Shown one piece after another: positions 1,916 to 43,200 of a DNA stretch of 64,000 nt. A program made the position numbers and the translations under genes. The first letter of the stretch is position 1, and every line of letters starts with the position of its first letter. The notes beneath the pieces are model-generated. The model saw only the letters and a list, made by a program, of their open reading frames with translations. It searched no databases and was not told the DNA's origin. The stretch lies in NCBI GenBank assembly GCA_028287465.1, contig JAQBPO010000082.1, positions 62,001 through 126,000 on the forward strand. The letters are read 5' to 3'. The stretch is from Fibrobacterota bacterium. GTDB taxonomy: Bacteria; Fibrobacterota; Fibrobacteria; UBA11236.

Positions 1916-2032
1916 GCGAATCCTCCAGGATGGTTTTTAATCCAATGCAAAAATAAGACGATGTCACCGGATCCGCGTAGGGAAAAATGTCCCCTCAGGG
2001 GCCGGATCGGCCTTAAACCGGGAGGTTTTTTC

Positions 2033-5000
2033 TCATTTTTGAGAAACGGAAACCAAGGAATGGGCAGGAAGTGTCAATTTCATGGTTTCGGAAAGAGCCA
2101 ATGCCTCCCCTTGCCCCGGTCCCGTTTTCGCATTGGACGCATCCAGCCTTTTCAGGATTCCGGCCCCCTTCAGCCCGGGTACCGTCAAGGTTACCGTAGC
2201 CGCGGTCTCCGGATGCTTGTTGATGAGCAGAACGGAATGCGTCCCATCCGGTCTTTGGGTCAGGTAACAGCTCAGATCGCTCTCCGCGTCCGCTCCGGCC
2301 GCCCCGGCGCCCGCCGCCCCGGCGCCCGGGACCGAAACCACCTTGCATCCCAGAAGGCGGCCCCGCAGGCTTTCGCTGGCCAGCTTGAAGGCATGATAGG
2401 AAGGGCGAGGTACGATATCCCCGTCCTGGGCCCCGGTCCGGGAAAGGTAGCCATAGTCCCCTCCCTGCTCGGTGAGGTTGTTGTGGATGTCCCAGTAATC
2501 GGCCTCATCGATATTGTGCCTGGCCAGCATGCCCAGGTAATCCGCCACGAACAATCCGTTCGCCAGGGACAGGGTCTGAGGGCCCGGTTTGAAGTCCACG
2601 GAATTCCATTCGGTAAGCCAGATCCCGTACTCGCGGTCCGGATTCCCGTAGGTCTTGAGCTGCCGGCGAACGCTGGGGATGATTTCGTCGAGGCTTTGCG
2701 GGGCCGCCAACAAGGCCTGGTCATTCTCTTCGCCGGAATGCTGGGGGTAATGGTGGATGATGACGGCGTCGGCCAGGTCCTTGGTGGCCGCGAGCACCTG
2801 CTTGTTCCATTCCCCGTCCAGCACCGCGACCACGGCCACCTGGATGGCGGGGTCGGCCGCCTTCATGGCCTTGATGAAGGCGGCGGCCCGTTTGCCGTAC
2901 TCGTCCCCGGTGGTATGCTGGGGATGCCAATCTCCGTAGAGTTCATTGCCCACCTCCCACAGCCGCACCTTGGCGTTCTTGGTCACGTTCACGTACTTGA
3001 CCCAATCGGCCGCCTCCTGGGGCGTGCCCTTGCCGAAGTTGACGGTGAACATGCCTTCGTTCCCGGTGCGCTTGAGCCATTCCAGGAATTCATCCGTATC
3101 CACCATGCCGTCCTTCTTGTCCAGCACTTGCCGCCAATGATCGTCGTCGGCGCGCAGCCCGCCGGGGTAGCGGACCACCTGGTGGCGCGCGGCTTTGACA
3201 TACGCTTCGGTCTTGCCGTCCAGGAGATCCCCGTCCCAGAGGGCGGCATTGATTCCGAACAGGCCGTCATTGATCTTGGCCGTGATGACCTGGCCGGGCT
3301 GGCCCGACACCTGGAAATCGCGCCGAGCGACCACGGGCCGCTTGGGGGCCTCGCGCAGATTGGTCAGGGTCACGTCATCGACCCGGTAGGATCCGCTGGT
3401 GCCGTCCCCGGCGGGCTTGAAGTCCAATACCCGGACCGATTGCAGATCGAGCTTGCCGTTCTGCACCGCGTCCGGCGGCTGGTAATAGGGGAACTTCACG
3501 AAGTTGCGGAAGGGCACCAGGATATCGTTCCATCCCCGGGTGGCGCCGGTATTGGCCACGAAGACTTCATTGCCCGCGTCATGCACCTGGATGGTCACGC
3601 CCTGGAAGGCCTTGGGCGTATAGATGGAGACCCGGATGCCGTAATGGCCCGTCCAATCGCGCATGCCCCCCGGGCTGCCGTTGACATCGTATCGGTAGAG
3701 GACGTCGCACCAGTCCGCCAGGCGATAGGTCACGCCCAGGGATTTCCCGGGGCGGCCCTTGATCGCGTCCGCTTCGAAGGCCACCTCGGATTTGGGTCCC
3801 TTGCCGGTTTCCCAGCCTTTCCCGCCCGCTTCGAAATCATGCAGGAGCAGATCCGGCGATTTGGAGGAGAAGGCGTTCCAGTATTCGTCCGGATCCACGT
3901 ACCCGGGGATATCCTCCGTGATGACGATATCCTTGGCGTAGAAGGCGATGGGTTGGCCGGGCGGGATCTTGTTCTCGTCCTTGTTCTCGGAAAAGCGGAT
4001 TTCGTTTATCTGATCCCACTTCACTTCGGTCGAGATCTCCGCCGACTTGGCCGCATCCCAATACATGCCGGTGGCGCCGAACCTCTTCAGGGGGATGCGG
4101 AAATAATTCCATGCGGTATCCACCGGGCCGAAATCCCCGAGGACCAATTTGCTCTGGGCCTTGATGCCGTCCGGGCGGCTGTCCAGAAGGCCCAGATAGA
4201 TGCTGCGCACCCCGGGCGCGCCCTTGCCCCAAAAGCAGAGCGCCCCTTTGGCCGCGCGGAGACCGCGCAGGTCCAGGTTTTTGCCTTCGCCCAAGGCCAG
4301 GGTCACGCCGGAATATTCGTTCGGATCCATATAGGCCGCCAGGGTCCCTCCGGCGGGGCTTCCAGGCTGGACCTTCGCGGCCGTCTTGCCACCATAGACA
4401 TAGGTGAAGCCGCCTTGGGGCATGGCGTCCCCGAACAGGGTGTGGAGCACCTTCCCGCCTCCGGCCTGCGCCAGGGGCATGGCGATGGTTTCCTGCTTGT
4501 CCTGCCAATCCTCCGAGGGCTTCTCCTCGACGGCGTCGTATACGTCCCGCAATACGGCGATATCGTCGACCCAGACCCGGAAGGAGGGGTTCTCCGCCTT
4601 CTTGATCTCGATGCGGAATTCCGTGACCGCGTTCCAGTCGAAGGCCATCGGCACTTCGATGCGGTTCTTGGCGTCCCAGAACACGCCCTTGCGGCCGAAC
4701 TTGGTGAGGGGAATGGAAACCTGGCGCCATTCGTTGGTGATCCCGCCATTGTCGTTCAAGGGGATCCGCACCACGGTCTTCTTGCCGTCCCGGTTCTCAT
4801 CGTCCACCAGGGCCACCCAGGCGATTTCCCCGCCGCGCGCGCCCTTGATCCAGAACCGCAAGGCGCCCCGGGAATAGTAGGGCGTGAGGTCGTACATCAG
4901 GTTGTACAGGCATACGGAGCCGCCGGAATAATCCCCGGCCTCCAGATCGAATTGCAGGGAGACTTCGCTTTCATGCCCGGACTCTTCGGGTATGAAGACC

Positions 5001-5227
5001 TTGGCCGCATCGGGATAGGTGTACTGGTACCCGCCGGCCACGAAGTCGTCATCGAAGAAGCGGGCCACCATGCGGGGATCGGATTGGGCCGCGCTTCCGG
5101 CGCCCAGGGTTGCGGCCGGATCCGGAAGCGGTTTGAAATGGAGGGCGCAGCCCCAAAGGCCCAGGGATGCCAGGATGGCCAGGAAACCCATGGGCGCGCG
5201 GTCTCGTTTCGGATTCACAAAAGCCAC
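2033..5227 (-). CDS. Clan GH-A glycoside hydrolase lipoprotein (GH51-like) with N-terminal carbohydrate-binding-like domains
   Basis: 1064 aa. A lipobox (GLWGC, Cys near residue 27) marks it as a lipoprotein. Three beta-sandwich stretches at about residues 45-235, 260-435 and 450-640 resemble CBM11/CBM4-type carbohydrate-binding domains. The catalytic barrel follows. WEVGNELYGDW (about residue 756) supplies the acid-base Glu, and IWLTEWNSVDF (about residue 873) supplies the nucleophile. The spacing of about 117 residues is typical of GH51/GH39 in clan GH-A, and a short beta domain closes the protein as in GH51. Substrate is not settled: arabinofuranosidase and beta-glucanase are both possible; the GH9 and GH1 neighbours favour a beta-glucan or mixed plant cell-wall role. 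The start is GTG with GGGAG upstream; an ATG at residue 13 is a weaker alternative. It lies 16 bp downstream of an outer-membrane protein gene, probably in the same operon. Confidence 0.8.
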   Translation of the reverse strand: MAFVNPKRDRAPMGFLAILASLGLWGCALHFKPLPDPAATLGAGSAAQSDPRMVARFFDDDFVAGGYQYTYPDAAKVFIPEESGHESEVSLQFDLEAGDYSGGSVCLYNLMYDLTPYYSRGALRFWIKGARGGEIAWVALVDDENRDGKKTVVRIPLNDNGGITNEWRQVSIPLTKFGRKGVFWDAKNRIEVPMAFDWNAVTEFRIEIKKAENPSFRVWVDDIAVLRDVYDAVEEKPSEDWQDKQETIAMPLAQAGGGKVLHTLFGDAMPQGGFTYVYGGKTAAKVQPGSPAGGTLAAYMDPNEYSGVTLALGEGKNLDLRGLRAAKGALCFWGKGAPGVRSIYLGLLDSRPDGIKAQSKLVLGDFGPVDTAWNYFRIPLKRFGATGMYWDAAKSAEISTEVKWDQINEIRFSENKDENKIPPGQPIAFYAKDIVITEDIPGYVDPDEYWNAFSSKSPDLLLHDFEAGGKGWETGKGPKSEVAFEADAIKGRPGKSLGVTYRLADWCDVLYRYDVNGSPGGMRDWTGHYGIRVSIYTPKAFQGVTIQVHDAGNEVFVANTGATRGWNDILVPFRNFVKFPYYQPPDAVQNGKLDLQSVRVLDFKPAGDGTSGSYRVDDVTLTNLREAPKRPVVARRDFQVSGQPGQVITAKINDGLFGINAALWDGDLLDGKTEAYVKAARHQVVRYPGGLRADDDHWRQVLDKKDGMVDTDEFLEWLKRTGNEGMFTVNFGKGTPQEAADWVKYVNVTKNAKVRLWEVGNELYGDWHPQHTTGDEYGKRAAAFIKAMKAADPAIQVAVVAVLDGEWNKQVLAATKDLADAVIIHHYPQHSGEENDQALLAAPQSLDEIIPSVRRQLKTYGNPDREYGIWLTEWNSVDFKPGPQTLSLANGLFVADYLGMLARHNIDEADYWDIHNNLTEQGGDYGYLSRTGAQDGDIVPRPSYHAFKLASESLRGRLLGCKVVSVPGAGAAGAGAAGADAESDLSCYLTQRPDGTHSVLLINKHPETAATVTLTVPGLKGAGILKRLDASNAKTGPGQGEALALSETMKLTLPAHSLVSVSQK

Positions 5228-5243
5228 GGCAGCTCCCGGGGGT

Positions 5244-7259
5244 TCAGAAGTGGACGGTCAGGAACAGATCGGTCTGCAATTGGGAGAAGTCGTTGTCCGC
5301 GGCGCCATCGGGATTGTCGACCTTGATCCGCCCCAGGGAGAAGAGCAGATGCGCTCCCGCGGCCACCTTGTAGTCCAGGCCGCCCGCGTAATGGGTCTGC
5401 ACCTGTTCGGTTTCCGCGGCGGGGCGGGAGACCGTATTGACGATGCGCTGATACCCGCCCAGGATGGAGAATCGCTTCCAGAATCCGAATTGCCCGCCGG
5501 CATTGAGGAAGTCGCTCGTCACCTTGGCGGCGGCGTGCAGGGAATCCCCCGCGATGCCGGCATTGTCCGCCGTGGACCGGACCAGGCTGCCGGAAAGGGT
5601 GAAGGGCAAGGCCAAGCCCATCAGGTCCCCGGCTTCTACCTTCAGTCCGCCGCCCATCTGGGAGAATTCCGTATTAGGCATGGCCCGGGAAGAGTCGACC
5701 ATGACTCCGGTGACGTTCTCCAGCCTGGCGAAAACCGCTTGCGCCTCGATGCGATCCTGGAGGAAGGAAAGCGTTAGCTCCGATTGCAGGCCCCCGCGGT
5801 TGGGCGTCGCCGGCCCGAACGGCATGAGCAGTTGCAGGGCCGTGTCCGCGCGCGAGGCGGCGAAGGCGGCCATCTCGCCCTGGGTCATGATGGAGCTCTG
5901 GTAGGAGTTCTTGGAAAAGGGCGCGCGCTGCCAGAGATTGGTCTGCTCGCTGGGGGCGAATTTGAAGACATGTTCGTACATGGCGTCGAAGGTCGAGTAA
6001 TTGCGGGCGCGTACGTCGTTGGTCCTTATCTTCGCGGTGTCGTTCTCGATGTTGAGGATGCGCTCGCCCATGAATACAGGGCTTTGCGCCAGTTCGTTCC
6101 GGAAGCCGGCCTCGTTCCTGATATAACCGAGGTTCATGCGGACGCGGAAGGAATTCGCCGGTTTCCAGGAACCGTAGAGCCGGGCGGACAAGGCCGACCC
6201 GTCGATGGAGTTCCGGGTGACCACGCTATCGGTGGAGGTCGCATAGTAGTTGGTATCGTCCTTGGAGAGCGCGTATTCGGCCGAGACGCCCAGATTGAAA
6301 TCCGGGTTCCCGGTCAAGGTCGCCAGATCGAACCCCGCCCGTCCCGCGACCACGCCGGTATGCTGGGCCGCGGTGTCCGCCTCGCCGGTCCCGGCATAAC
6401 TGCCTTGCTTATCGAAGATGGCCAGGTAGGTCCCTCCCAAAGAGGCGCCCACGGGCGATACGAAGTCGGCATTGGCCGATCCCAGGAACTTCTCCACCGG
6501 GGACCTTTCCACCGCGGCCGTCGCCTTGTTGCCGTTCTGGATGCTGGTTTCGACGTTGCGCAAACGGGAACCCAGAACGTTCAGATGCGCTTCCTTGAGG
6601 AGGCCCTTGGCGCCATGGTCCACCGCCGCGTCGAAGTCCAGGTTCACGCCCTGAAGCAGGCGTTCGCCGGCGCCTACGAAGGCCTCGTCCATGGCCTCCC
6701 GGCGGTCCCCGGCGAACACCGCGGGTTCATACAGGACCCCGAACTCGGGGGCGTACAGGGTGAGGGGGCTGTACTTGCGCTTGAAGTCCCCGACATCGTA
6801 CCCGAACATCCCCTTCACCTTGCCGTCGATGCTGATCCAACGGGTATTGATGGGATTCCCCACGTCCGAAAAGAAGTTGCGCCAATCCTGGTGCATCCGG
6901 ACCATCAGGCGTCCCTGGGTCGCGGTATTCGGCCGGGCGCGGATATCGAAATCGACGGACGTGAATTCGACGGACTCCTCCGATCGGCGGGAACTGATCG
7001 CGGCGGGGCCGCCCAGGGACGAATGGAGGTATTGGGATCGGAACGCGCCTCCCAGGGAGATGCCTTCCTTGGACATGATGCCTTCGAGGGCTTTTCCGTA
7101 TTCGCCCTGGACCGGACGGGCGTCGGGTTCGGCTGTCCCTGCGGCGCCGGGGACGCCGGAGACCTGGGAAAGCGCGGCGTTGGGGAATCCGCACACCAGG
7201 CAAGCCAAGGCGGCCGCAATCGGGCGGAACCGGGCCGCCTGGAGTATTGAAGTCGACAT
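5244..7259 (-). CDS. Outer-membrane beta-barrel protein, probable glycan uptake porin
   Basis: 671 aa from the ATG at 7259, chosen for GAGGAG six bases upstream; a longer open frame adds 19 residues without support. It has a signal peptide (residues 1-32, ending near AALSQ), alternating amphipathic strands throughout, and a C-terminal FLTVHF ending in Phe, the usual BAM recognition signal. No periplasmic enzyme domain is visible. The gene lies 11 bp after another barrel gene of the same kind and upstream of the GH-A lipoprotein, in a line of co-directed genes starting with a sugar ABC transporter. A role in passage or display of oligosaccharides is inferred from this context. I cannot assign a named family. 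Confidence 0.72.
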   Translation of the reverse strand: MSTSILQAARFRPIAAALACLVCGFPNAALSQVSGVPGAAGTAEPDARPVQGEYGKALEGIMSKEGISLGGAFRSQYLHSSLGGPAAISSRRSEESVEFTSVDFDIRARPNTATQGRLMVRMHQDWRNFFSDVGNPINTRWISIDGKVKGMFGYDVGDFKRKYSPLTLYAPEFGVLYEPAVFAGDRREAMDEAFVGAGERLLQGVNLDFDAAVDHGAKGLLKEAHLNVLGSRLRNVETSIQNGNKATAAVERSPVEKFLGSANADFVSPVGASLGGTYLAIFDKQGSYAGTGEADTAAQHTGVVAGRAGFDLATLTGNPDFNLGVSAEYALSKDDTNYYATSTDSVVTRNSIDGSALSARLYGSWKPANSFRVRMNLGYIRNEAGFRNELAQSPVFMGERILNIENDTAKIRTNDVRARNYSTFDAMYEHVFKFAPSEQTNLWQRAPFSKNSYQSSIMTQGEMAAFAASRADTALQLLMPFGPATPNRGGLQSELTLSFLQDRIEAQAVFARLENVTGVMVDSSRAMPNTEFSQMGGGLKVEAGDLMGLALPFTLSGSLVRSTADNAGIAGDSLHAAAKVTSDFLNAGGQFGFWKRFSILGGYQRIVNTVSRPAAETEQVQTHYAGGLDYKVAAGAHLLFSLGRIKVDNPDGAADNDFSQLQTDLFLTVHF

Positions 7260-7270
7260 TTGCGCTCCTC

Positions 7271-9673
7271 TTAAAACCACATCTTGATTTCCGCGGAGAC
7301 CAAGGCGTTGGTCCAATCGTTCGCGGAAAAGAATTCATCCGTATGCTTCATCCACTTGTAACGGCCGTGCAGTCCCGTCCGGGAGGCGAAATCCCAGTCG
7401 AAGCCGCCGCCATAGGCGTAGTCACGGTAGGCGATAGGCACGCGCACCACGGCCCCGGAGGCCGGGTCTTCCATATAGGCCTGGTCGGAACGCCAGTTCT
7501 CGAATCCGGCGAGGCCGAGCAGGTAGAACTTGTCCGTCAGGGCTATGGCGGGCTCGGCCCGGAAATAGGTGCCCCAGAGCATCAGGTCCGCGGGCGAGAA
7601 TGCCAGGGGACGGAACCGCGAGGAGACGCCGTTGAGGGCGAAGTAACCGCTGAGGAATAGATCATGGGCATACCCGATGCGGGGTCCGATGTCCGCCGCG
7701 CCGTCCAGCTCGAAGTTGAAGGCCCACTTCCGATGCTCGGGGACGAAGGGGGAGCGGGTCAAGATGCCGGTGGGGTGGGTGAGGTTGGAATCCGCCTGGG
7801 CGGCGTTATCGTACGGGACGAAGCCTTCGTAGATGGACAGGTAATCGCTGCGCAGGCCGCCGGCCTCGGGGCCGTAGGGGTTCTGGTATTCCGGCGTGCG
7901 GAAGCTTTCGTCGCCCAGGCGGCGCGGATATTTGCCCGTCGTCAGGGAATGGTCCACCAGGTTGTTGCCCCAGCGGTTGTAGGAAGTCTGGAACACGCTG
8001 TTGAAGTCCTGGCCGTTCAAGCGATAGGGGAAGTACAGGACGTCCCGCGCCACGGAAGGCTGGAAATGCTGGCCATAGCCGACGCGGAAGTGGCCGTATC
8101 CCACATTGGGCGAGACCGATAGGTTGAGGCCGGCCATGTTCTGGGAATAGGGCGATCCCTCCCCGCGGCCGATGAATTTGCCGGCGCCCACCATATTAGA
8201 ACCCACGGGGAAAAACGCGTCCACGGGGGTGGCGAAGGAGAAGGGCGAATAGAAGCCCTTGGGGATATAGGCGATGTCCGCCTGGACCGGGATGCCATAC
8301 CGGGAACGGATGCGCGCGAATGCGGCGGGTACGGGGTCGGCGGATGCGGTTCGCGAGGAGGCGATGCCGTTGTAGCTTTTATGGCCGAGGGAATCCGTCC
8401 CCGCGGAATCCACCGAGTAGCGCATCCAGACTGTGTCCAGCAGGCCCAAGGCAAGGTCGAAATGGACGTCGAGGTTCTCGTTGACCGCGCCCTTGAGGTC
8501 CATGGACCAGACCTTGGGCTGCTTGTAGAAGCCCTGTCCGTTCAGGAAGCGGAGTTGCCTGTTGTTGGCGGTATCCGCGATCAGGGCTTCGCGCACGGAG
8601 AAGTTGTTGCGCCAGGCCTGGTTCAAGGCGATCTCGGATTTATAGCGGATGCCCACGGTATTGATGCCCAAGGTCAGTCCGCCCAAGGCCTTCTCCTTGG
8701 CCAGGCGCGCATGGTACATATGGCGGAACGAATCGCCGATGCCCTGCTGCTTGGCGTCATTGGCGAGATCGGCCAGGGCCAGATCGCTGGAGAAGTCGAC
8801 GAATTCCCTTTCGAAATTGTCGTAACGCTCGAAGGTGCCCCAAAGCAGGGCGAGCTGCAGGCCCGCGGGCAGATCGATGCTGCGGAGGTCCACGCCGTTG
8901 AAGGGCTTCTTGTTCCAGGCTGCGCGCCCGGATTTCTCGCCCTTGGCGATATTGTATTCGTAATAGCGTCCTACCGGCTGTTCCACTTCGTAGGGCAGGT
9001 AATCCCAGGCGAAGGTGCGGGGCTGGGCCTTCCAGATGGTCAGGGGCGAAGCCTCGGTCCACAATACGTTCCCCATGCGCACCCAGAATGAGGCCGGAAC
9101 CGTACGTATGGCGAGTCCCGCTGCCATGTCCTCGTGGATGTTGGCGGTCACTTCGCTCTTATCGTGCCGGTTCTGGGCGCGGGTGAATCCGCTCCCGTCG
9201 GCGGCTTCCTTGTTGAGGAAAATCCCCGGCAGGGTGTTCTGGAATCCCAGCTTGGACCAGAGCACGGCATTGCGGCCCGCGCGCACCACCATCGCCAGGC
9301 GCAGCATGCTTTCATTGCCCTCGTAATCGGCCTGGGTCCAGGTCTGATCGCGGATCAGGTAATTGGGATACTCGGAGAAATCGTGCTCGGAGATGCGGAG
9401 GCGCGCTTCGCCCGAAAAGGAAACCGGGCTGGATCCGCCGAAGAGCAGGGTCGAACGCACCTTGGACTCGAGGACGTCCCCGGAGGGCAAGTCCGCCGCG
9501 GCGCTATCCGTCTTCCATGCGACGGCCGCTTCGGCCCCATCCGATCCAGGCGCGGCGACCGGATCGGCCTTGGCCTTCACGTCGCTTCCATCCGCCATGG
9601 CCGGCGAGCCCAGCCCCAACAGGCATGCGCTCAACAGGGCCAGGCAATCATTTCCAGAACGGATTCTTGTCAT
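7271..9673 (-). CDS. Outer-membrane beta-barrel protein, larger partner
   Basis: 800 aa from the ATG at 9673; a TTG four codons upstream is possible but sits too close to its AGGAG. There is a signal peptide (cleavage near PAMADG), a low-complexity Ala/Asp linker to about residue 70, then a long beta-strand-rich region ending in SAEIKMWF with terminal Phe. It resembles the next protein in general architecture rather than in close sequence. Its position between the MalG-type permease gene and the second barrel gene suggests one dedicated outer-membrane route for the sugar imported by the ABC transporter. There is no TonB-box or SusC/SusD signature, so it is not a standard Bacteroidetes polysaccharide utilisation pair. 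Confidence 0.7.
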   Translation of the reverse strand: MTRIRSGNDCLALLSACLLGLGSPAMADGSDVKAKADPVAAPGSDGAEAAVAWKTDSAAADLPSGDVLESKVRSTLLFGGSSPVSFSGEARLRISEHDFSEYPNYLIRDQTWTQADYEGNESMLRLAMVVRAGRNAVLWSKLGFQNTLPGIFLNKEAADGSGFTRAQNRHDKSEVTANIHEDMAAGLAIRTVPASFWVRMGNVLWTEASPLTIWKAQPRTFAWDYLPYEVEQPVGRYYEYNIAKGEKSGRAAWNKKPFNGVDLRSIDLPAGLQLALLWGTFERYDNFEREFVDFSSDLALADLANDAKQQGIGDSFRHMYHARLAKEKALGGLTLGINTVGIRYKSEIALNQAWRNNFSVREALIADTANNRQLRFLNGQGFYKQPKVWSMDLKGAVNENLDVHFDLALGLLDTVWMRYSVDSAGTDSLGHKSYNGIASSRTASADPVPAAFARIRSRYGIPVQADIAYIPKGFYSPFSFATPVDAFFPVGSNMVGAGKFIGRGEGSPYSQNMAGLNLSVSPNVGYGHFRVGYGQHFQPSVARDVLYFPYRLNGQDFNSVFQTSYNRWGNNLVDHSLTTGKYPRRLGDESFRTPEYQNPYGPEAGGLRSDYLSIYEGFVPYDNAAQADSNLTHPTGILTRSPFVPEHRKWAFNFELDGAADIGPRIGYAHDLFLSGYFALNGVSSRFRPLAFSPADLMLWGTYFRAEPAIALTDKFYLLGLAGFENWRSDQAYMEDPASGAVVRVPIAYRDYAYGGGFDWDFASRTGLHGRYKWMKHTDEFFSANDWTNALVSAEIKMWF

Positions 9674-9774
9674 TGCTGTTCCCAAGGCTCCTGCGCGTGA
9701 AAGACCCGCATCCCCGGGCCCGCTTCGGTCCCTACTTGGTATCCGAAAGGGCGGATGCGGTTTGGATCCGGGGA

Positions 9775-11700
9775 TTATTCCTTGACGGCCCCGGCGGTCA
9801 GGCCGGAAACGATATGCTTCTGCATCAGGAAGAAGAGGATCATGACCGGGATGGTCGAGACGGTGGCCGCCGCCATCATCAGGTCATAGCGGTTCTGGAA
9901 GTTCCCCACGAACAGCCGGATGCCCACCGGTATGGTATAGGTCTTTTCGTCCGTCAGCACCCAGGCGAACATCAGTTCGTCCCAGGCCGAGAGGAATACG
10001 TAGACGCCCGTGGCGATGATGCCGGGCAGGGCGGAGGGGATGATGATGCGGAAGAAGGCCTGGATGGGTCCGCAGCCGTCCACCAGGGCCGCTTCCTCGA
10101 GTTCCTTGGGCAGGGAGGCGAAGAAGCCGCGGAGGATCCAGATGGAGAAGGGCACGAAATAGGCCGCATAGGTCAGGATGAGCCCGCCGTACGAGCCCTT
10201 GACCACAAGTCCCGTGGCCCGGCTGAAATTGATGAACATGAGGTAGAGCGGAAGCAGCAGCATGATGCCCGGCACCATCTGGGTCGCGAGCACGGAGTAG
10301 CCGAACAGGTTCTTGCCCGGGAAGTTATAGCGCGCCAGGGCGTACCCGCCCATGGAGGCCAGCACCATGGCCACCAGCATCACGCCGATGCAGACGATGA
10401 AGCTGTTCTTCAGGTACAGGCCGAAATCGATATTCCGCCACAGGTCGACGTAGTTGCGCCAATGGATATAGATGGATGGCTTCGGCGCCAGGGCCGAGGC
10501 GACCGGTTTTCCCGCGGCATCGAGAAGGGAGAGGGCGCCTTTCGGTCCTCCGAGCAAGGCTCCTCCGTCCAATAAAGGCAGGATGGCCGTGATCCGGAGG
10601 GAGGTGATGTCCGCGCCGGCTCCCGCCAGGGAAGGAAATCCGGGAGTGAAGGTCCGCGCCGCGTTCACGGGAAGGCTGTCCGCCCTTCCGGCAATGCCGT
10701 CAACGGAAGGCTTAACGGCTTTCATCGGCATGCCTGCCGGATCCGGCAGGGATGTGGCTCCCCGGGAATCCCCCAGCCAGATGCGGCCGGGAGCGCGGGC
10801 GAATGCGGTGATGTTGCCGCTGCCGGGTTCCCGGTCCAGCCAGGCCAGCACGGTATCGGCCTCGATGTCGAAGATGAAGGCGCGGGAGTCCGCGCTCAGG
10901 AGCATGCGTCTTCCGTCCAGGGCGCATAACCGTTCCGGCAGGGCGGGCAGGGTTCCGGCCGGTACGGCCTTGCCCGGGAGACCGGACCGGGGGGCTTGGA
11001 GGGATATCCCCTGGGTGGTCAGAAGCACGAGTTCGGGATCCGGCCCGGTATCGCCGCGGGCCGGAATCACCATGCGGATTTCCCCTGATTTTTTCGAGGC
11101 GAAGCCCGCCATGGGCGAGAACCGGCCCGAGGCGGGGGAGAAGGACGTAACGCCCGGGTATCCCTTGATCCGGTAGGAAAGGTAGAGGGCGTCCCCGGAG
11201 CGGGCCAGGCTCGAGCCCGCCACCTCGTTCACCCAGAGGGTGCTCCAGGCCGATCCGTATGCCGCGGCGATTTCCTCCACTCCATGGGCCTTAAGGAGGG
11301 TCAGGCCCTCCGCATCCACCTCTTGCAGGCCGCGGTTGCTGGAAAGCACCCAGAGAGTGCTGCCGCCCTTGGACGGGCCCGGCTGATCCCGCTCTCCATC
11401 CAGGAAGAAAGACGTCGCGAAGGTTCCCAGTTCCAGGTGCCGGATTTTCCGTAGCCCCTTCTTTTCGAAAAGGGTCAAGCCCCCGTCCGCCGTACCCGCC
11501 AGGTAACCCCGTCCGGTTTCCCGCAGGAATACGATCTCGTTCTGGCGGCGCCCGGGGAGCACCTTTCCGGAGAGGATTTCCTGGTTGTCCTTCAACCCGC
11601 AGTACACCATCCAGGCGATGGGCACCACGTGCAGGACGATCAGGATCCAGGTGAGTCCGGTCAGGAACCGGCCGAAGGTCTTACGGCTTTTGGGCTGCAT
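9775..11700 (-). CDS. MalG-type sugar ABC permease with inserted seven-bladed propeller
   Basis: 641 aa, more than twice the ~280 aa usual for this family. Residues ~13-35 are TM1. Residues ~400-641 are a normal MalG core with several membrane helices and the EAA loop (KELEEAALVDGCGPIQAFF) that docks on the ATPase. Residues ~45-400, in the periplasmic loop between TM1 and TM2, form an insertion with seven repeats of the pattern hydrophobic strand-G-hydrophobic-D/P-x-x-G, for example TLWVLSSNRGLQEVDAEG and RIWLGDSRGATSL; this is the pattern of two-component-regulator-type beta-propellers. The gene starts 11 bp after malF. An ectodomain placed here could contact the binding protein or a glycan; that is inference. 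It is a single uninterrupted frame, not a fusion caused by a missed stop. Confidence 0.88.
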   Translation of the reverse strand: MQPKSRKTFGRFLTGLTWILIVLHVVPIAWMVYCGLKDNQEILSGKVLPGRRQNEIVFLRETGRGYLAGTADGGLTLFEKKGLRKIRHLELGTFATSFFLDGERDQPGPSKGGSTLWVLSSNRGLQEVDAEGLTLLKAHGVEEIAAAYGSAWSTLWVNEVAGSSLARSGDALYLSYRIKGYPGVTSFSPASGRFSPMAGFASKKSGEIRMVIPARGDTGPDPELVLLTTQGISLQAPRSGLPGKAVPAGTLPALPERLCALDGRRMLLSADSRAFIFDIEADTVLAWLDREPGSGNITAFARAPGRIWLGDSRGATSLPDPAGMPMKAVKPSVDGIAGRADSLPVNAARTFTPGFPSLAGAGADITSLRITAILPLLDGGALLGGPKGALSLLDAAGKPVASALAPKPSIYIHWRNYVDLWRNIDFGLYLKNSFIVCIGVMLVAMVLASMGGYALARYNFPGKNLFGYSVLATQMVPGIMLLLPLYLMFINFSRATGLVVKGSYGGLILTYAAYFVPFSIWILRGFFASLPKELEEAALVDGCGPIQAFFRIIIPSALPGIIATGVYVFLSAWDELMFAWVLTDEKTYTIPVGIRLFVGNFQNRYDLMMAAATVSTIPVMILFFLMQKHIVSGLTAGAVKE

Positions 11701-11711
11701 TGGTTAACCGA

Positions 11712-12773
11712 TCATTTTCCCGTGAGCTGATCCCTGAAGATGCGGTACCACAGGAAGACCAGGGTCATCATGGCCAGCATCAGCAGGGAGGACATGGCTG
11801 CGCCGGTCCCGAAATCCCACATCTGGAAGGAATTGCGGAACAGGGCGGTCATCAACAGATCCCCATGCTTGCCTGGGAAGCCCGCGCCGTTCCCGAACAT
11901 CATGATCACGATATTGAAGGAGTAGACGTTGAAGATCAGCCCGTGCAGGATCAGGATGGCCCAGACCGGTTTGAGCAAAGGCCAGGTGATTCGGCGGAAG
12001 GCCTGCCAGGCGTTCGCGCCGTCGATTTCCGCGGCCTCGTAGACGTCCTTGGGGATTCCCTGGAGCCCGGCCAGCAACATGAGCATCGAGAACGGCCATT
12101 GCCTCCAGATGGTGGGGACGATGATGGCCCACAGGGTGTTGGGGCCGATGAGCCAGGTGGGCTTTTCGGAAAAGAGGTGGAGCCAGTCCACCAGGACGAT
12201 GTTGACCAAGCCGACCTCGCGCTGCCACAGGAAGCCCCACAACAGGCCCACCACATAGGTCGGGACGATCCAGGGGAAGAGCATCAGGGTGCGCGCGGCG
12301 GCGCGGAAGCGGAACTCCCGGTTGACCAGCAAGGCCGCGGCGGTGCCGACCGCCAGGGTCCCGATGGTCACGGCGATCGTATACAACGCCGTGTTCCGCA
12401 CCGCGTCCCACAATCCCGATCGGATTGGGCTGTCCGGATTGAAGAGGATTTCCGCGTAGTTCTCGAACCCGGCCCACGGCGCCGAAAGGTAGTCCAGGAG
12501 CTTGTCCTTGCGGCTGCGCAGGAAACCGAGGTAGAGGCCTTGCAGGATGGGAGCGGCCTGGAGCAGGAGCATGCCGATGATGGTCGGCAGCAGGAAGAAA
12601 TACGGGACTTTGTTCCGCCTTACGGATCGCAGGAGCCTTGACAAGGGACCCGGCGCGGCCGGTTTCCCGATCCGGATTACAGCGGTATCGGCGTCCGGGG
12701 TCGGGTCCTGAATCGCGAGGGTTGATCCGTCAGGATGCACGACCGGCTCGGAGTCGGTGATCGGAGGCTTCAT
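11712..12773 (-). CDS. MalF-type sugar ABC transporter permease
   Basis: 353 aa. The ATG at 12773 shares one base with the stop of the binding-protein gene (TGATG), so translation is probably coupled. A cytoplasmic, Pro/Asp-rich N-terminal tail of about 65 residues precedes TM1 (YFFLLPTIIGMLLLQ). The EAA loop is visible as KDVYEAAEIDGANAWQAF. Six membrane helices are likely, the usual core for MalF/UgpA-type permeases; the large P2 periplasmic domain of enterobacterial MalF is absent. It pairs with the MalG-type subunit encoded just downstream to form the transmembrane channel. The longest open frame starts 77 codons earlier inside the previous gene and was rejected. Confidence 0.93.
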   Translation of the reverse strand: MKPPITDSEPVVHPDGSTLAIQDPTPDADTAVIRIGKPAAPGPLSRLLRSVRRNKVPYFFLLPTIIGMLLLQAAPILQGLYLGFLRSRKDKLLDYLSAPWAGFENYAEILFNPDSPIRSGLWDAVRNTALYTIAVTIGTLAVGTAAALLVNREFRFRAAARTLMLFPWIVPTYVVGLLWGFLWQREVGLVNIVLVDWLHLFSEKPTWLIGPNTLWAIIVPTIWRQWPFSMLMLLAGLQGIPKDVYEAAEIDGANAWQAFRRITWPLLKPVWAILILHGLIFNVYSFNIVIMMFGNGAGFPGKHGDLLMTALFRNSFQMWDFGTGAAMSSLLMLAMMTLVFLWYRIFRDQLTGK

Positions 12774-14311
12774 CAATTCGCCACGGCCAAGGATTTGTGC
12801 AATAGCTCCACATGTTCGGGATGGTTCCTGAAATGGGCCTGGATCTGCCCGTCGATGTCCCGCACGGCCGCGTCCACTTCCGATTTCACGAGCGCCTCGG
12901 AGTAAGGACCGTTCACCTCGGCCGCGATGTCGAACAGGTTGCCCAGGCGCTTCATCAGGATGGCGGTTTCGATCTCCCCCCAATACGGGACGGCGGGATA
13001 GCAACGCCCGTAGGCGACGATGTCCCGGAAGACGCTGCGCTTGGCGTCCGAGGAGAAGTAGGGGCTTGCGAAGGCGGATTTGAGAGCGGGCAGGAAGCCG
13101 GAGATTTCCGCATAAGAGAGCTGGGCCGAACTGTCGGCCGTCATGTACCGGACCAGCATCTTGGCCAGGTCGGGGCGCTTGGAGGATTTGAATACGGCCA
13201 GGTGGGAACCTCCCATGAAGACCGAACGCATGGCGGGACCGGCCGGGGGAACGAGCACGCCGTAATTACCCGCCACATGGCTGTTGGCGGAGCCGCCCTG
13301 CTCCGGCGGGCGCTCGAGGTAGACGTTCTTGATGGTGGATTCGAAGAAGGTGGCCAGGCGGCCTGCGTCGAAATCGGCGGAGACCTGCGCCGTGTTCTTC
13401 TCCATATTGGTCCTGGGGTTGAGGCCCTTGCGCACCATGTCCAGGTAGAAGAGGATCCCCTTCATGGCTTCGGGGCTGTTGAGCACGCATTTGTCGCCCA
13501 TGGGATTGAGGAAGTCGCCTCCCGCGCCCCAGATCCAGGGAGCGAAATTATGCACCACGTTCCAATCGTTCTTGCCGGGGAAGCCGATGGGGGAGACCGT
13601 CTCCCCGTTATGCCTGATGCCCGCCGCCTTGATTTTTTCCAGGGCGGCCAGATACCCCTCCCACGTGCCGAGGCTCTTGGGGTCCACCTTCGCCTGGGCG
13701 AATACGTCCGTGCGGTAGAACATGGGCCTCACGTCGATGAACCACGGCACCGAGGTGATATGCTCCGAGGTGCGGGGCTTGGCGGCGGCCCAGGTGGAGG
13801 GAAGGAAGGAATCCTTCACGTGGATTTCGCCGTCCAGATCGTCCAGGGGCAGGAGGGCGCCGAGATCGGTCAGGAACGGGCACCAGGTGGTCCCGAGTTG
13901 CACCACGTCGGGGCCATCCCCGGAGATGGCCGCGGTGGTGAGCTTGGTCCAGGCGCTGCCCCAGTCGAGGACGGAGATTTTCACCGCGATTTCCGGGTGG
14001 GCCTCCTTGAATGGCTCCAGCAACGCTTCCATGTCCTTTTCCGGGCGCGGGGAATTCGGCATCACCCAGACCAGCAGTTCCCCCGGTCCGTTGGGCACGG
14101 TCGCGTCCGCCGCCTTGGCGGATCCATCCTTACCCGCCTTGTCGCAGGCGGAAAGGGAAAGGACCGATGCGAAGGCCAAGGCGAAGGCCGCGGTCCAGGC
14201 CAGGCAGGATAGGGCGACCATCAGGGCCAGACGGCCCCGTCGGCTCAGGCGTGCCTTGGCTCCAAGATCATCGTCCGTTCCTGCCGTCATCCCGCTTCCG
14301 GAATCGTTCAT
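12773..14311 (-). CDS. Family 1 sugar-binding lipoprotein of an ABC importer
   Basis: 512 aa. A basic N-terminus and long hydrophobic stretch lead to a lipobox LSAC with Cys56, so the protein is anchored on the periplasmic side. The rest matches the bacterial extracellular solute-binding family 1: LLVWVMPNS near the first beta-strand, a [13 protein letters not shown] ligand-side segment and an M-K-G-I-L-F-Y-L-D helix in the second lobe. It overlaps the ATPase gene by four bases (ATGA) and the permease gene by one, a tightly coupled operon. Ligand cannot be read from sequence; neighbouring GH9 and GH1 genes suggest a beta-linked gluco-oligosaccharide. Confidence 0.92.
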
Positions 14312-15408
14312 GAGGGTTCCCCTTCGAAGAAATGCATATGGGCGGCCTCGGGGTACAAGAGCACCTGATCACCCCTTCCCACCGCCAGATCGGGATGGAC
14401 GCGGGCCACGGCGCGGTGCGCGCCGGCGCGGCAATAGACCAGGGTTTCGGCCCCCAGGGGTTCCACCACCTCCACTTCCGCGGCGATGCCCGTCCGGGTC
14501 CCGCCGGTACCGTCGGATGCGCGTTCCAGGCGCAGGTGTTCCGGGCGCACTCCCATCATGGGCTTCGGGGCTTTTCCGTCATCGGCCAAAGTCTTCTGGC
14601 CGGACTGGAAATCCCCTGACCGCAAGCCGGTGGATCCGGCGCCCGGGATCATCAGGGTTTCGCCGAGCCATTCGCAAGGCAGGAAATTCATGGGCGGCAT
14701 GCCGATGAACCCGGCAACGAACCGGTTGGCCGGGCGTTTGTACAGTTCCATCGGCGTGCCGTATTGCTGGATGACGCCGTCCTTCATGCAGACGATGCGG
14801 TGGCCCATGGTCATGGCCTCGGTCTGATCGTGGGTCACGTAGATCATGGTCGTCTGCAACTGGCCCGAAAGGCGCGAGATCTCCACCCGCATCTGGACCC
14901 GCATCTTCGCGTCCAGGTTGGACAGCGGCACGTCGAAAAGGAAGACCTTGGGTTTGCGTACGATGGCGCGGCCGAGGGCCACGCGCTGGCGCTGGCCTCC
15001 GGAGAGGGCCTTGGGCTTGCGGGACAGGTAGGGGGTGATGGCGAGCATTTCCGCCGCCTCGCCCACGCGCCGGCGGATCTCCTCCTTGGGCAGCTTGCGC
15101 AGCTTTAGCCCGAAGGCCAGGTTCTCCTCCACGGTCATGTGCGGATACAGCGCGTAGTTCTGGAACACCATGGCGATGTCCCGATCCTTGGGCGCCATGT
15201 CGTTGCAAAGCCTGCCGTCTATGCGGAGCTCGCCCGAAGAGATTTCCTCCAGGCCCGCGATCATGCGCAAAAGGGTCGATTTGCCGCAGCCGGAAGGGCC
15301 CACCAGCACCAGGAATTCCTTGTCCCGCACGGTGAAGGACAGATCCTTCACTGCCGTGACGCCGCCCTCGTAGACCTTATGGATGTTCTTCAGGATGACT
15401 TCAGCCAC
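14308..15408 (-). CDS. MalK/UgpC-type sugar ABC transporter ATPase with altered Walker B
   Basis: 366 aa, typical for MalK/UgpC/MsmK. It starts with GTG behind GAGGGGATTCC. Visible motifs: Walker A GPSGCGKS (37-44), Q-loop Gln83, signature LSGGQ (135-139), Walker B VFLFD (155-159), D-loop SNLD (163-166) and switch His193 (THDQ). The residue after Walker B, normally the catalytic Glu, is Val160 (codon GTG at 14931-14929). The regulatory TOBE/OB-like domain follows residue ~235. It is the first gene of the minus-strand sugar operon. The family call is certain; whether the protein hydrolyses ATP normally is not. Confidence 0.93.
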
Positions 15409-15737
15409 GGAATCCCCTCATGCGCCATGCGCCTCGTCCGGCCTGCCGGAGAGCGCGCCCAGACCTGGGCCGGCGCAACTGGATTAGTGGGAGATTCCCG
15501 CGGAGGGTTCGCATCGATAGCCGTTTTGTGTTTCTATCGCCGGCGCCGGGGTTTTCCCAAAATCCCGTCTTCGCGATCCATTATCGGGGGCTCTCCTTCC
15601 AATCCGGCGTTTTCGGACGAACCCGGTCCGCTTCCGGGGACACTAATCCGGATGCCACCGCGCCTGAACGCGGGGCAACCTCAAATCAAAAAGACCGGGA
15701 CGTATATTTCCCCGGTACACGGGAAGGGATCCGAACG
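15409..15737. promoter_or_regulatory. Divergent intergenic region between the ABC operon and GH1 gene
   Basis: 329 bp separating two divergent transcripts that probably serve the same sugar. It must hold both promoters. I find no convincing -35/-10 pair, no LacI-type operator and no gene. The last ~60 bases before the GH1 start are relatively AT-rich (AAATCAAAAAGA, GTATATTTCC). Confidence 0.4.
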
Positions 15738-17096
15738 ATGAAGGCCAAACTGGAGAGGAACATGTTCCCGGAGGATTTCATCTGGGGTTCGGCGACCGCC
15801 TCTTTCCAGGTGGAGGGCGCGGCATGGACCGACGGCCGGGGCGAGAGCATCTGGGATCGTTTCTGCCGCATCCCCGGCAAGGTCGCGGGCGGCCATACCG
15901 GCGATTTCGCATGTGATCACTATAACCGTTGGCCGCAGGATATCAAGATGATGAAGGACCTGGGCATGCAGGCCTACCGGTTCAGCACCGCCTGGCCCCG
16001 GGTGATTCCCGGGGGCCGCGGTCCCGTCAACAAGGCCGGCCTGGACTTCTACGATCGCCTGGTCGACGGACTCCTGGAGGCGGGCATCGTCCCCTTCACG
16101 ACCTTGTTCCATTGGGATCTGCCGCAAACCCTCCAGGACCAGGGAGGCTGGGTCAACCGCGATATCATCGAGGCCTTCGGCGTTTACGCCGAGCACGTGG
16201 TCAAGCGCCTGGGCGACCGCGTCAGGAACTGGATGACCCACAATGAGATCCCGTGCTTCGTCGGCATCGGTTACGGGGAGGGCCGGCACGCTCCAGGCCT
16301 GCAGGTATCCCGGAAGGAACTGAACCGCGCCTACCATAACGCCTTCCTGACCCATGGCCTCGCGGTCCGCATCGTGCGCGAATTCGCGCGCAAGGACGCG
16401 GAAGTGGGCCTGGTCAACAACCCGCTCATCCCCGTGCCGCTCGCCGAGACCCCGGCCCATGTGGAAGCCGCACGCAAAGCCTTCATCCGCATCGGCGCCA
16501 ACCTCGCGGAACCCATCTTCAAAGGGGCCTATGCCCCCTGGTGGCTCGAGGAGCAAGGCGCGGACGCGCCGGAAATACGTCCCGGCGACATGGAACTGAT
16601 CTCCTCCCCAACGGACTTCCTGGGCATAAACATCTATTCCGGCGTCTTCGTCGAGCCCTCCGAGGACCCAATCGGGTACCGCCAGTTGCCTTTCCCCAAA
16701 GGCTATCCCCATCTCGCCCTGGATTGGCTGAAGCCCGTACCGCAGGCCCTCTATTGGTGCTGCCGCTACTACCGGGAGGACTACGGCGTCCGCAAGACCT
16801 ATATCTCCGAAACGGGCTGCGCCTGCGACGACGAGAAGGACCCGGCGACTGGCCGCGTCATCGACCTCGATCGGGTCCAATGGCTGCGCAGCCATGTGAA
16901 GGAGGCCCACCGGGCGGTCGGCGAAGGCCTGGGCCTGGCGGGATTCTTCCAATGGAGCCTGATGGACAACTTCGAATGGGCGGAAGGCTATTTCAAGCGC
17001 TTCGGCATCGTCCACGTGGATTACGAAACCCAGGAGCGTACGCCCAAGGAAAGCGCCTACCTGTACCGGGAGATCATCCGATCGGGGTTGGTCTGA
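15738..17096 (+). CDS. GH1 beta-glucosidase, cytoplasmic
   Basis: 452 aa from the ATG at 15738 (GGAAGGGA upstream); the open frame extends 106 codons further without support. No signal peptide. GH1 hallmarks: FIWGSATASFQVEGA near the N-terminus (family N-terminal signature), WMTHNEIPCF with acid-base Glu170, and YISETGC with nucleophile Glu358. The usual Pro after the acid-base Glu (NEP) is Ile here, and the usual ENG of the nucleophile motif is ETG; both catalytic Glu are kept. It releases glucose or a similar sugar from imported beta-linked oligosaccharides. It is divergent from the ABC importer operon. Confidence 0.94.
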   Translation: MKAKLERNMFPEDFIWGSATASFQVEGAAWTDGRGESIWDRFCRIPGKVAGGHTGDFACDHYNRWPQDIKMMKDLGMQAYRFSTAWPRVIPGGRGPVNKAGLDFYDRLVDGLLEAGIVPFTTLFHWDLPQTLQDQGGWVNRDIIEAFGVYAEHVVKRLGDRVRNWMTHNEIPCFVGIGYGEGRHAPGLQVSRKELNRAYHNAFLTHGLAVRIVREFARKDAEVGLVNNPLIPVPLAETPAHVEAARKAFIRIGANLAEPIFKGAYAPWWLEEQGADAPEIRPGDMELISSPTDFLGINIYSGVFVEPSEDPIGYRQLPFPKGYPHLALDWLKPVPQALYWCCRYYREDYGVRKTYISETGCACDDEKDPATGRVIDLDRVQWLRSHVKEAHRAVGEGLGLAGFFQWSLMDNFEWAEGYFKRFGIVHVDYETQERTPKESAYLYREIIRSGLV

Positions 17097-40112: not shown

Positions 40113-40284
40113 CCGGGGATTTGGCCTCCGTGGCTTTCGCAATTTGAGGACGGCCTCCCGGACACCCGTCATCCGTATGGTTTATTTCGCGTGGAACCAT
40201 CCCGTTAGATTGCAAATTACCCGGAATTGAGGCATTTTTGGTGGGGTTCCCAGGGGTGGGAAACCAGTATTGGAGACAAACCCT

Positions 40285-43200
40285 TTGCCGCTACCATCTT
40301 TCAAGCCATTCGCGGCGGTTGCGTGCCTTGTCGCCGCGCTTCTACTTCCGGCCCATTCCGAGTACGAACATAAGGTCAGGGCCGCCGGCGATCTCGAAAA
40401 GCTCGCTTCTGAAATCCAATCGAGCCAGGACCGGGGCGGGCATACCGTCAATTTCGATTACTACGGTTCGGTCGGGACATTCAAGGTGGACGCCCCCTCG
40501 GACAAGGTCGAGTCCCTTACCTTCAAGCGCAATTCGCCGGACTCGGAAGCCGTCATCCGCGTGGACAATACCTTCCTGGATATCAAACGGATGCCCGTAT
40601 TGGTAACGCTGAAGGGCCTGGCATTCCAACTCATGCCCAAATCGGTGCTTATCGCCGGAGCGGATGGATCCAAATTGAACGGCAGCCTGCTGATCGATTC
40701 CTGTTTCATTTTCGCGGACGACCTGGACAATACCTTCCTTAGCTGGTGGGCGGATAATGCGAGCTCGATCGAAATCCGCAACAGTTTCATCGTCATCAAG
40801 GGAAGCAAGGCGGCGACCACGCGGATTGCGCTGACCGCGGGCAACATCCGTTTCACCAATGACCTTATCAACTTCTCAGGGGCGATTTCCGGGACGGGCA
40901 TCACGAAGAAGTTCGACTTCCTCTCCAATACCGTGAACAAGACCCAGATCGAATTGGGAGGAAAGCTGGACGCGGGCCTTCTTCCCACCTTCGAATTCAA
41001 CCAGAACCTGTTCACCCACCATGGCGCAAACGATGCCTTCGGGGGCCAGAATTTTTTCGTCCTCAGCTACGGATCGTTCAATGAGGCCCGTTCCTATGTC
41101 CAGAACAACAAGGTATACAAGACCTGGAGCGGTTTCGATTTCCCCGCGAGCGCTCGCTTCAAGGCGGGGCCGAACGACTTGATCGATACCCTCGTGGGCA
41201 AACGTTCCACCGAGCTTTGGAATTGGTATACGGAAAACCTGGACTCCAACAAGACCGGCCTGTTGAGCGGGGAGTTGAAGCTGGAGAAGTACAATGTCAT
41301 GCCCCAGGATTCCGTCTACTCCTGGAACTTGGCCAAGGGCAATCTCAAAGTCTCCTTCCAACCGGAAGCCTATCCAAGGATGATCAAGCTGGATACGCCC
41401 GCGACCAAGGTGGTCCTACCGGCCGATTCCGCCCTAAGGCGTATTTTCCCTTCGGCGGGATATGCCCACTTCGGTCCTTTCCGCGTCGGCAGGATTACCT
41501 TGGGCGCCGAAGCCATCCACGGGAGTCCGGTCCTACTCGCAAACGACGCCGCGCTGCCGGCGCAATACCAGGCCCAACCGGGAACCTCCCAGGTCAATTC
41601 GAACCCGAGCTTCTTCGAAAATGCGCAACCCACGGCCCGCAATTTCATCCTTGCGAACGCGGGGAATACGCCCGCCGGGGTCTCCGTGATTCCCCAGGTG
41701 GATGGGCAGCTCGGAACCATGGACAAGCTGGTTTTTTCAAAGGTCGATTCCGCGGGTTATACCGTGGTCCGCGCCCCTGCGGCGCAGAACCTTCCGCCCA
41801 ACCTCCGCAGCCTGGAAACGAGCTTCCGGGTCACCACCACGGCCGTGATCAATTCCCGGGTCGATCTCGGCTCGAAGGAAAATGTTTCTCCTTACTCTTC
41901 CGACAAGGTCTTCTGGTTTTTCAGGAATCCGGATACCCTGATCCAGGCCACCAAGGCGCTTAAAGGCCGTGACTCGCTCAAATACACCGCGTCCAAGTTT
42001 TACTCGTCCGCCAAGGGCGACCTCGAGGCGTATCTGGTCGAAAAACTGAGCGTGCCGGCGGGCGGAATCACCATACCTGTCGCGGACGGCTCCATCCGGG
42101 TGCAATCGGTCGGCGGATTCCAGCTCACGATAGATAGCGCCCAGGTCCTGGACTCGTCCGCATATGGTCTTCTCTCCGTCCATGGATACTCCTTCGCCTG
42201 GCCGTTCAAGACCGCCAAGGACTCGATATCCGTTTCCTTCAAGGCCAATCCGGATCAGGACCTTTTCGTGAAAGTGGGTACTGCCTCTCCCGTGCCTTCC
42301 GGGTTCCTCCGTGACTCCACGGGAAACAACATCAAGGGCGTTATCAAGGAAGAGGACAAGGGCAAAACCTTCTTCCTGGGGATCGAATACAATATCCTGA
42401 AGGGCAACGCTTATAACGGCAGCTACGGGAATAACGTCACCCTTTCCGGATTTGAATCCACGACGTCGGGAAAGCTCGCTTATGATTCCCTCTCTTCCGG
42501 ATTGAGGGCGGGCCTGGTGGGGGTCGTCAAGGATTTCCGCTACCTCGGCGGAAGGGAGATGAAGGCCATTTCCGTTTCCACCATCACTCCCAAGGTGGCT
42601 TACGGAATGCAATTCCCCGTCAAGGCCTCCCAGAATTCAGCCATGATCGAAGCGTATATCCATGACGGTCAAGCCTGGCTTCCCGTGCCCTTGACCGGAT
42701 CCATTTCGGGCGGGAAATTCGTACTCTCCAACCTTCCCCCCAGCGCCCGCGCGGTCGCCGTGGTGGAACGCCTCATGTCCGCCGAAACCTATGTCGGGGG
42801 CAAGCCCGTCGTAACCGGCACGACCCTGACCTTGACTCCGCAATATATCTTTACAGATTCCCTGCATCATATCACCCATTATTGCCTGGAGTTGATGTCA
42901 GTGGATCCGAGCGGGACGGTGGATACGGACACGTGCAAGGACTCGGACAAGAAACCGATAGGCCAGGAAACCTCGGTCCCCCTGGTACCGAACTGGGCCT
43001 ATCAATACCGGATCCAGTATTACATGACGGACGAGAAAATCGACGGGAGGAAATTCGAGATCCTCGTCGGAAGCACGTTCAATCTGAAATCGGCCGCGCA
43101 ACCGCCCGACATCGCATCCAAGGCGAGCAAACGATGGCATCTGGTCGGGTTTCCGATGGAGGGCCTTTTCTCCAACATTCTCCGAAAGCAGCCCGAGACC

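Follow-up and report, generated by a model that had tools for sequence, protein, structure and literature searches.

Few ABC transporters have been studied as thoroughly as the CUT1 sugar importers, whose known MalG and SugB subunits (about 274–296 aa) lack any large insertion between TM1 and TM2. In the 64,000-nucleotide stretch of Fibrobacterota DNA analysed here (the window; class Fibrobacteria), a gene of this type forms a single uninterrupted open reading frame of 641 aa (9775–11700, minus strand), and the original prediction placed a seven-bladed propeller in the middle of its product. The locus therefore raises the question of whether such a build is real and, if so, what a propeller might do inside a permease.

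The identity of the permease core, TM2 to TM6 (aa 412–641; 9778–10467, minus strand), is clear from Pfam and from its SugB and MalG matches. BPD_transp_1 spans only aa 450–633 (E 2.5e-18; 66.9 bits against a cutoff of 26.4), and aa 50–405 have no Pfam match. The best PDB relatives of the core are SugB (8ja7, 4e-53) and MalG (2r6g, 1e-37), and Foldseek likewise matched it to SugB/MalG. The EAA loop, in the region ELEEAALVDGCGP (about aa 532–545; 10066–10107, minus strand), is presumably the ATPase contact site, as established for EAA motifs, and its residues E535, A538, D541, and G542 are invariant among 25 proteins. The protein does not reach the cutoff of the NCBIfam MalG equivalog for E. coli-type maltose permeases (120.6 versus 261 bits), so it is a MalG-type permease and not MalG sensu stricto. 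It shares with MalG and SugB the six-TM core, the EAA loop, and an operon with a MalF-type permease, a solute-binding protein (SBP), and a MalK-type ATPase, and is the MalG subunit of a CUT1-type importer; the MalG-type core originally read from the letters is thus borne out.

The long form differs from MalG and SugB in about 355 extra residues in the loop that joins TM1 to TM2, the first on the periplasmic side. TM1 itself (about aa 14–35; 11596–11661, minus strand) follows a positively charged N-terminus. Among relatives without the insert, the nearest are betaproteobacterial MalGs of approximately 280–282 aa from Solimicrobium, Sapientia, and Albitalea (L077–L087), whose cores are 48–55% identical to that of the long form. 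Because these homologues align across the loop, the insertion site is fixed: the insert-free form reads ...LRNYSDIADGDQLDAGLPLQWQNY... and the long form ...LKDNQEILSGK-[355 aa]-YIHWRNY..., such that the propeller stands in for the linker of about eight residues that otherwise leads from TM1 to the conserved W-x-N-Y motif. The positively charged N-terminus and the EAA loop on the opposite side place the insert in the periplasm, and since it is built into this loop, both linkers exit from one propeller face.

For the insert (about aa 50–405; 10486–11553, minus strand), an AlphaFold2 model of the 641-aa permease, built on a 25-sequence alignment, predicts a seven-bladed beta-propeller (mean pLDDT 80.1, pTM 0.73). 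The TM1 helix at residues 4–35 is followed by the propeller at 56–404 and the permease core from 415. Of the 28 strands expected for a 7 × 4 propeller, the model shows 27, arranged as seven blades of four antiparallel strands in a common A-B-C-D phase; the blade regions mostly have a pLDDT of 80–94, and loops 331–339 and 360–363 fall below 50. A second model, of the Fibrobacter intestinalis MalG (723 aa, pLDDT 81.7), again has seven blades; a predicted all-helical subdomain at 122–240 separates blades 2 and 3 and is located on the top side. An insert-only profile searched against the PDB matched HTCS propellers (4a2l, 4e-19; 3v9f, 2e-12; 3ott, 1e-9), a whole-protein profile matched the same propellers and BamB, and the Foldseek matches of the insert were propellers of the WD40, designed, and HTCS types, with BT4673 among the HTCS proteins. 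Pfam detected no Reg_prop repeats at E ≤ 1 in the 641-aa permease and none at E ≤ 5 in its relatives; the blades are too divergent for detection by Pfam repeat models. Because the AlphaFold2 prediction and the sequence profile agree, the seven-bladed fold is well supported, and modelling of the protein alone recovered the periplasmic propeller of some 350 residues that had been proposed.

Like the Reg_prop domains of HTCS sensors (4a2l, 3v9f, 3ott), the insert is a seven-bladed propeller in the periplasm, and the two can be linked by sequence profile. In HTCS sensors, a histidine kinase bears two propellers and a YYY domain (PMC3243724), whereas here a single propeller lies inside a permease; the YYY and histidine kinase domains of Pfam are absent from the propeller permeases, in which the chain runs on into the permease core. 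No PDB match covers both the propeller and the permease parts. The likeness to HTCS is one of fold and is silent on the ligand.

Full-length orthologues with 67–80% identity are present in four of five congeneric genomes. A class-wide profile search matched 29 of 126 Fibrobacteria genomes, nearly all with MalG reading frames of 603–809 aa; one genome has a short paralogue only (G002), and one frame, in G063, reads 461 aa. Other Fibrobacterota classes yielded almost only ordinary MalGs, matched just in the core. A scan of GTDB contigs with two core peptide patterns, which would not have detected distant MalGs that acquired a propeller independently, recovered the long form from Fibrobacterota (among them the isolate F. 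intestinalis ATCC 43854) and from two MAGs of Ca. Marinamargulisbacteria. The insert of the latter is recognisably homologous (43–51 bits against the insert profile) and sits at the same place. In a tree of the MalG core and MalF, the base was not resolved and a single origin of the long MalGs was not rejected (AU p 0.46). In Fibrimonadaceae-type MalGs of about 680 aa (L110–L118, e.g., L113:4142-6178), the blade-6 region is seemingly missing from the alignment, so the blade number may vary, and these propellers may be six-bladed. The open-access literature searched yielded nothing relevant on a propeller in an ABC permease, in keeping with the earlier statement that no importer of this build had been described. 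The family is thus a known one, that of MalG-type permeases, and its propeller-bearing build is real, conserved, and apparently undescribed.

The insert is constrained by purifying selection, yet far more loosely than the core. Compared with its congeners, the window protein has 47–67% identity in the propeller and 94–98% in the core, with dN/dS of approximately 0.2–0.28 and 0.02–0.03, respectively, ratios that are rough because synonymous sites are near saturation. Conservation is also one-sided. With faces assigned from the strand order of the AlphaFold2 models and the usual propeller convention, the top-face loops (D-A and B-C, the linker side) of the window genus are invariant at 48 of 104 gap-free columns (46%) versus 13 of 63 (21%) for the bottom face (p 9e-4). 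The corresponding counts in Fibrobacteraceae are 52/69 (75%) and 22/65 (34%; p 2e-6), or 45/69 (65%) and 13/65 (20%; p 1e-7) when two more sequences are added, and in this family the linker face matches the permease core in conservation. From the models we infer that the conserved face is turned to the membrane, that is, to MalF/MalG and a docked binding protein; part of the top-face conservation may reflect general propeller construction.

The operon runs malK-SBP-malF-malG, with genes that touch or overlap. Upstream of malG on the minus strand are genes for the MalF-type partner permease (353 aa; 11712–12773), identified by Pfam and alignment; the SBP (512 aa; 12773–14311; Pfam SBP_bac_1, 5e-35), with an LSAC lipobox at its N-terminus and a gene whose stop is overlapped by the malF start; and a MalK/UgpC-type ATPase (366 aa; 14308–15408) with ABC_tran and TOBE_2 domains and an NCBIfam UgpC subfamily match above cutoff. 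A divergent gene (15420–17096, plus strand) encodes a GH1 beta-glucosidase (TIGR03356, 532 bits against a cutoff of 478; Pfam, 3e-143); the domain starts at aa 114, and the true start may lie downstream of 15420. On the other side of the operon, Pfam and NCBIfam identify a 1064-aa carbohydrate-active protein (2033–5227, minus strand) with CBM30, CBM11, and a distant arabinofuranosidase/GH79-like region. The plus-strand reading frame over this gene (1961–5326) looks like its antisense. Elsewhere, the locus of the insert-free sister Solimicrobium has its own TonB receptor, a PAS histidine kinase with a response regulator, and a GH9 enzyme, and in a Marinamargulisbacteria MAG a 2017-aa protein with a GH8 match lies directly behind the propeller-malG (L068:11753-17806). 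Because of GH1 and CBM30/CBM11 in the window, GH9 in the betaproteobacterial sister, and GH8 in Marinamargulisbacteria, the importer substrate is probably beta-gluco-oligosaccharides. The system also bears on oligosaccharide uptake by cellulose-degrading Fibrobacteria, which is poorly known; in the F. succinogenes genome paper, a cellodextrin ABC transporter was only inferred, from an SBP (PMC3079729).

As to the role of the propeller, our tentative preference, held at somewhat less than an even chance, is a platform in the periplasm, carried by the permease, on which the tethered SBP is docked or gated, by analogy with the P2 domain of MalF. The propeller would lie over MalF/MalG in the periplasm, its conserved face directed at the membrane, where this face would contact the membrane-tethered lipoprotein SBP, neighbouring permease loops, or both. 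It would thereby help to hold or position the SBP and gate sugar delivery, much as P2 does in the enterobacterial maltose importer, from an unrelated fold in another subunit. Both are folded periplasmic inserts in a CUT1 permease subunit, plausibly near the binding protein; P2 (residues 91–271, PMC3150292) differs in being smaller, of another fold, and in MalF and not MalG, and the MalF of the window system has no P2. The SBP of the E. coli importer touches MalG as well as MalF, on which the contacts include the P2 region (PMC3150292). If the propeller docks or gates the SBP, it would be a second, independent solution to the task of P2.

Several observations are consistent with such a platform: the placement of a seven-bladed fold, seen in two models, in the TM1-TM2 loop; the conservation of linker-side loops in two separate genome sets; the top-side location of the helical subdomain in Fibrobacteraceae; the tight operon with SBP and MalF; and an insert dN/dS of about 0.25. 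In addition, the SBPs of the long-MalG systems whose N-terminus was readable have a lipobox-type cysteine, whereas those of the insert-free sisters are soluble and secreted, an association that follows phylogeny and amounts to one contrast only. Docking of the binding lipoprotein, one of the roles originally proposed, is therefore plausible on the basis of the conserved membrane-facing side and the lipoprotein SBP. Against it, the SBP is 83–87% identical in the two closest genomes and the propeller only 59–67%, so tight co-evolution is not suggested, and the face pattern may owe something to propeller architecture in general. Moreover, the insert-free betaproteobacterial system shares the SBP-MalF-MalG-MalK set, with SBP, MalF, and MalK from the same families, which means that transport itself does not need the propeller. 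With a cultured carrier (F. intestinalis) and insert-free sisters, a direct comparison with and without the propeller is possible.

HTCS regulators are believed to bind oligosaccharides through their Reg_prop propellers. By analogy with this fold, glycan sensing by the insert, also suggested originally, is possible: its funnel would bind oligosaccharides, and the transport cycle or a kinase would thereby be informed of external substrate, making the protein a transporter-receptor. We regard this, the main rival to docking, as rather unlikely, even though HTCS propellers are the closest PDB matches to the insert profile and such propellers occur in HTCS that recognise complex oligosaccharides (PMC3243724), since a likeness in fold says nothing on the ligand. 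The signalling genes near the operon point both ways. In one lineage, a hybrid histidine kinase (HisKA plus receiver) with no sensor domain follows the propeller-malG at a distance of 4 bases (L070:12224-13387), and the insert-free sister operon has a kinase of its own, both in line with a sensory permease; but a kinase behind malG occurs at that one locus only, which led us to reject the kinase as a general partner, and no kinase lies beside the operon in the window. A small receiver-like protein is encoded directly upstream of malK in Fibrobacteraceae (L070:5918-6397, L078:6130-6621, L084:600-1025), with an invariant D in VVD, acidic ends, and weak response-regulator similarity (E 0.004–0.007); another copy is at G000:C55:11658-12098. 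Its gene is single-copy in 118 of 126 genomes of the class, including genomes without the transporter, and is thus not a specific partner; we rejected it as a dedicated signalling component, which also counts against sensing. A narrower version, in which the MalG propeller binds cello-oligosaccharides and signals through the transporter to the ATPase or a kinase (e.g., that at L070), we consider unlikely, and equally so its corollary that an ABC-importer transceptor arose from a sensor domain moved into the transmembrane subunit.

The propeller might instead only raise the local sugar concentration or stabilise MalG, with neither docking nor signalling. The fast divergence of the insert (dN/dS of about 0.25 against 0.02 for the core) and the sister family with the same partner genes and no insert fit this simpler role; the strong conservation of one face and the retention of the insert over two phyla suggest a defined contact, and we hold the role to be quite improbable.

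Coupling to the outer membrane, the third role proposed originally, would have the propeller extend to outer-membrane barrels or peptidoglycan and so give sugars a direct path from porin to importer. Two predicted outer-membrane barrels are encoded after malG on the minus strand, one of 804 aa (7271–9685; weak OMP_b-brl match) and one of 690 aa (5244–7316; weak Autotransporter match). The pair also follows malG in the other operon-bearing members of the genus, and the sole member without the transporter lacks barrel orthologues as well. This adjacency is confined to the window genus, and no barrel relative lies by the operon in Fibrobacteraceae, Fibrimonadaceae, or Marinamargulisbacteria; the barrels were accordingly rejected as a general partner, and their coupling to the propeller, specific to this genus, is weakly supported there and finds no support as a general function. 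The propeller face towards the outer membrane is the variable one, and a single propeller, about 4–5 nm across, is smaller than the typical periplasm is wide. We therefore consider such a bridge very doubtful. Fusion of a separate propeller gene to malG by annotation or assembly error, finally, has a negligible chance of being correct and was rejected, as intact full-length frames recur in congeners and in many other independent assemblies across two phyla, including F. intestinalis ATCC 43854 and a one-contig genome, with the homologous insert at the same position in the second phylum.

Relatives of the 804- and 690-aa barrels are clustered again in the same genome, on contig 100 (G000:C100:51000-57728), and the 804-aa barrel family is present in 116 of the 126 genomes of the class. 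Farther along the window, a 1370-aa reading frame (40270–44382, plus strand) has a strong coding signal.
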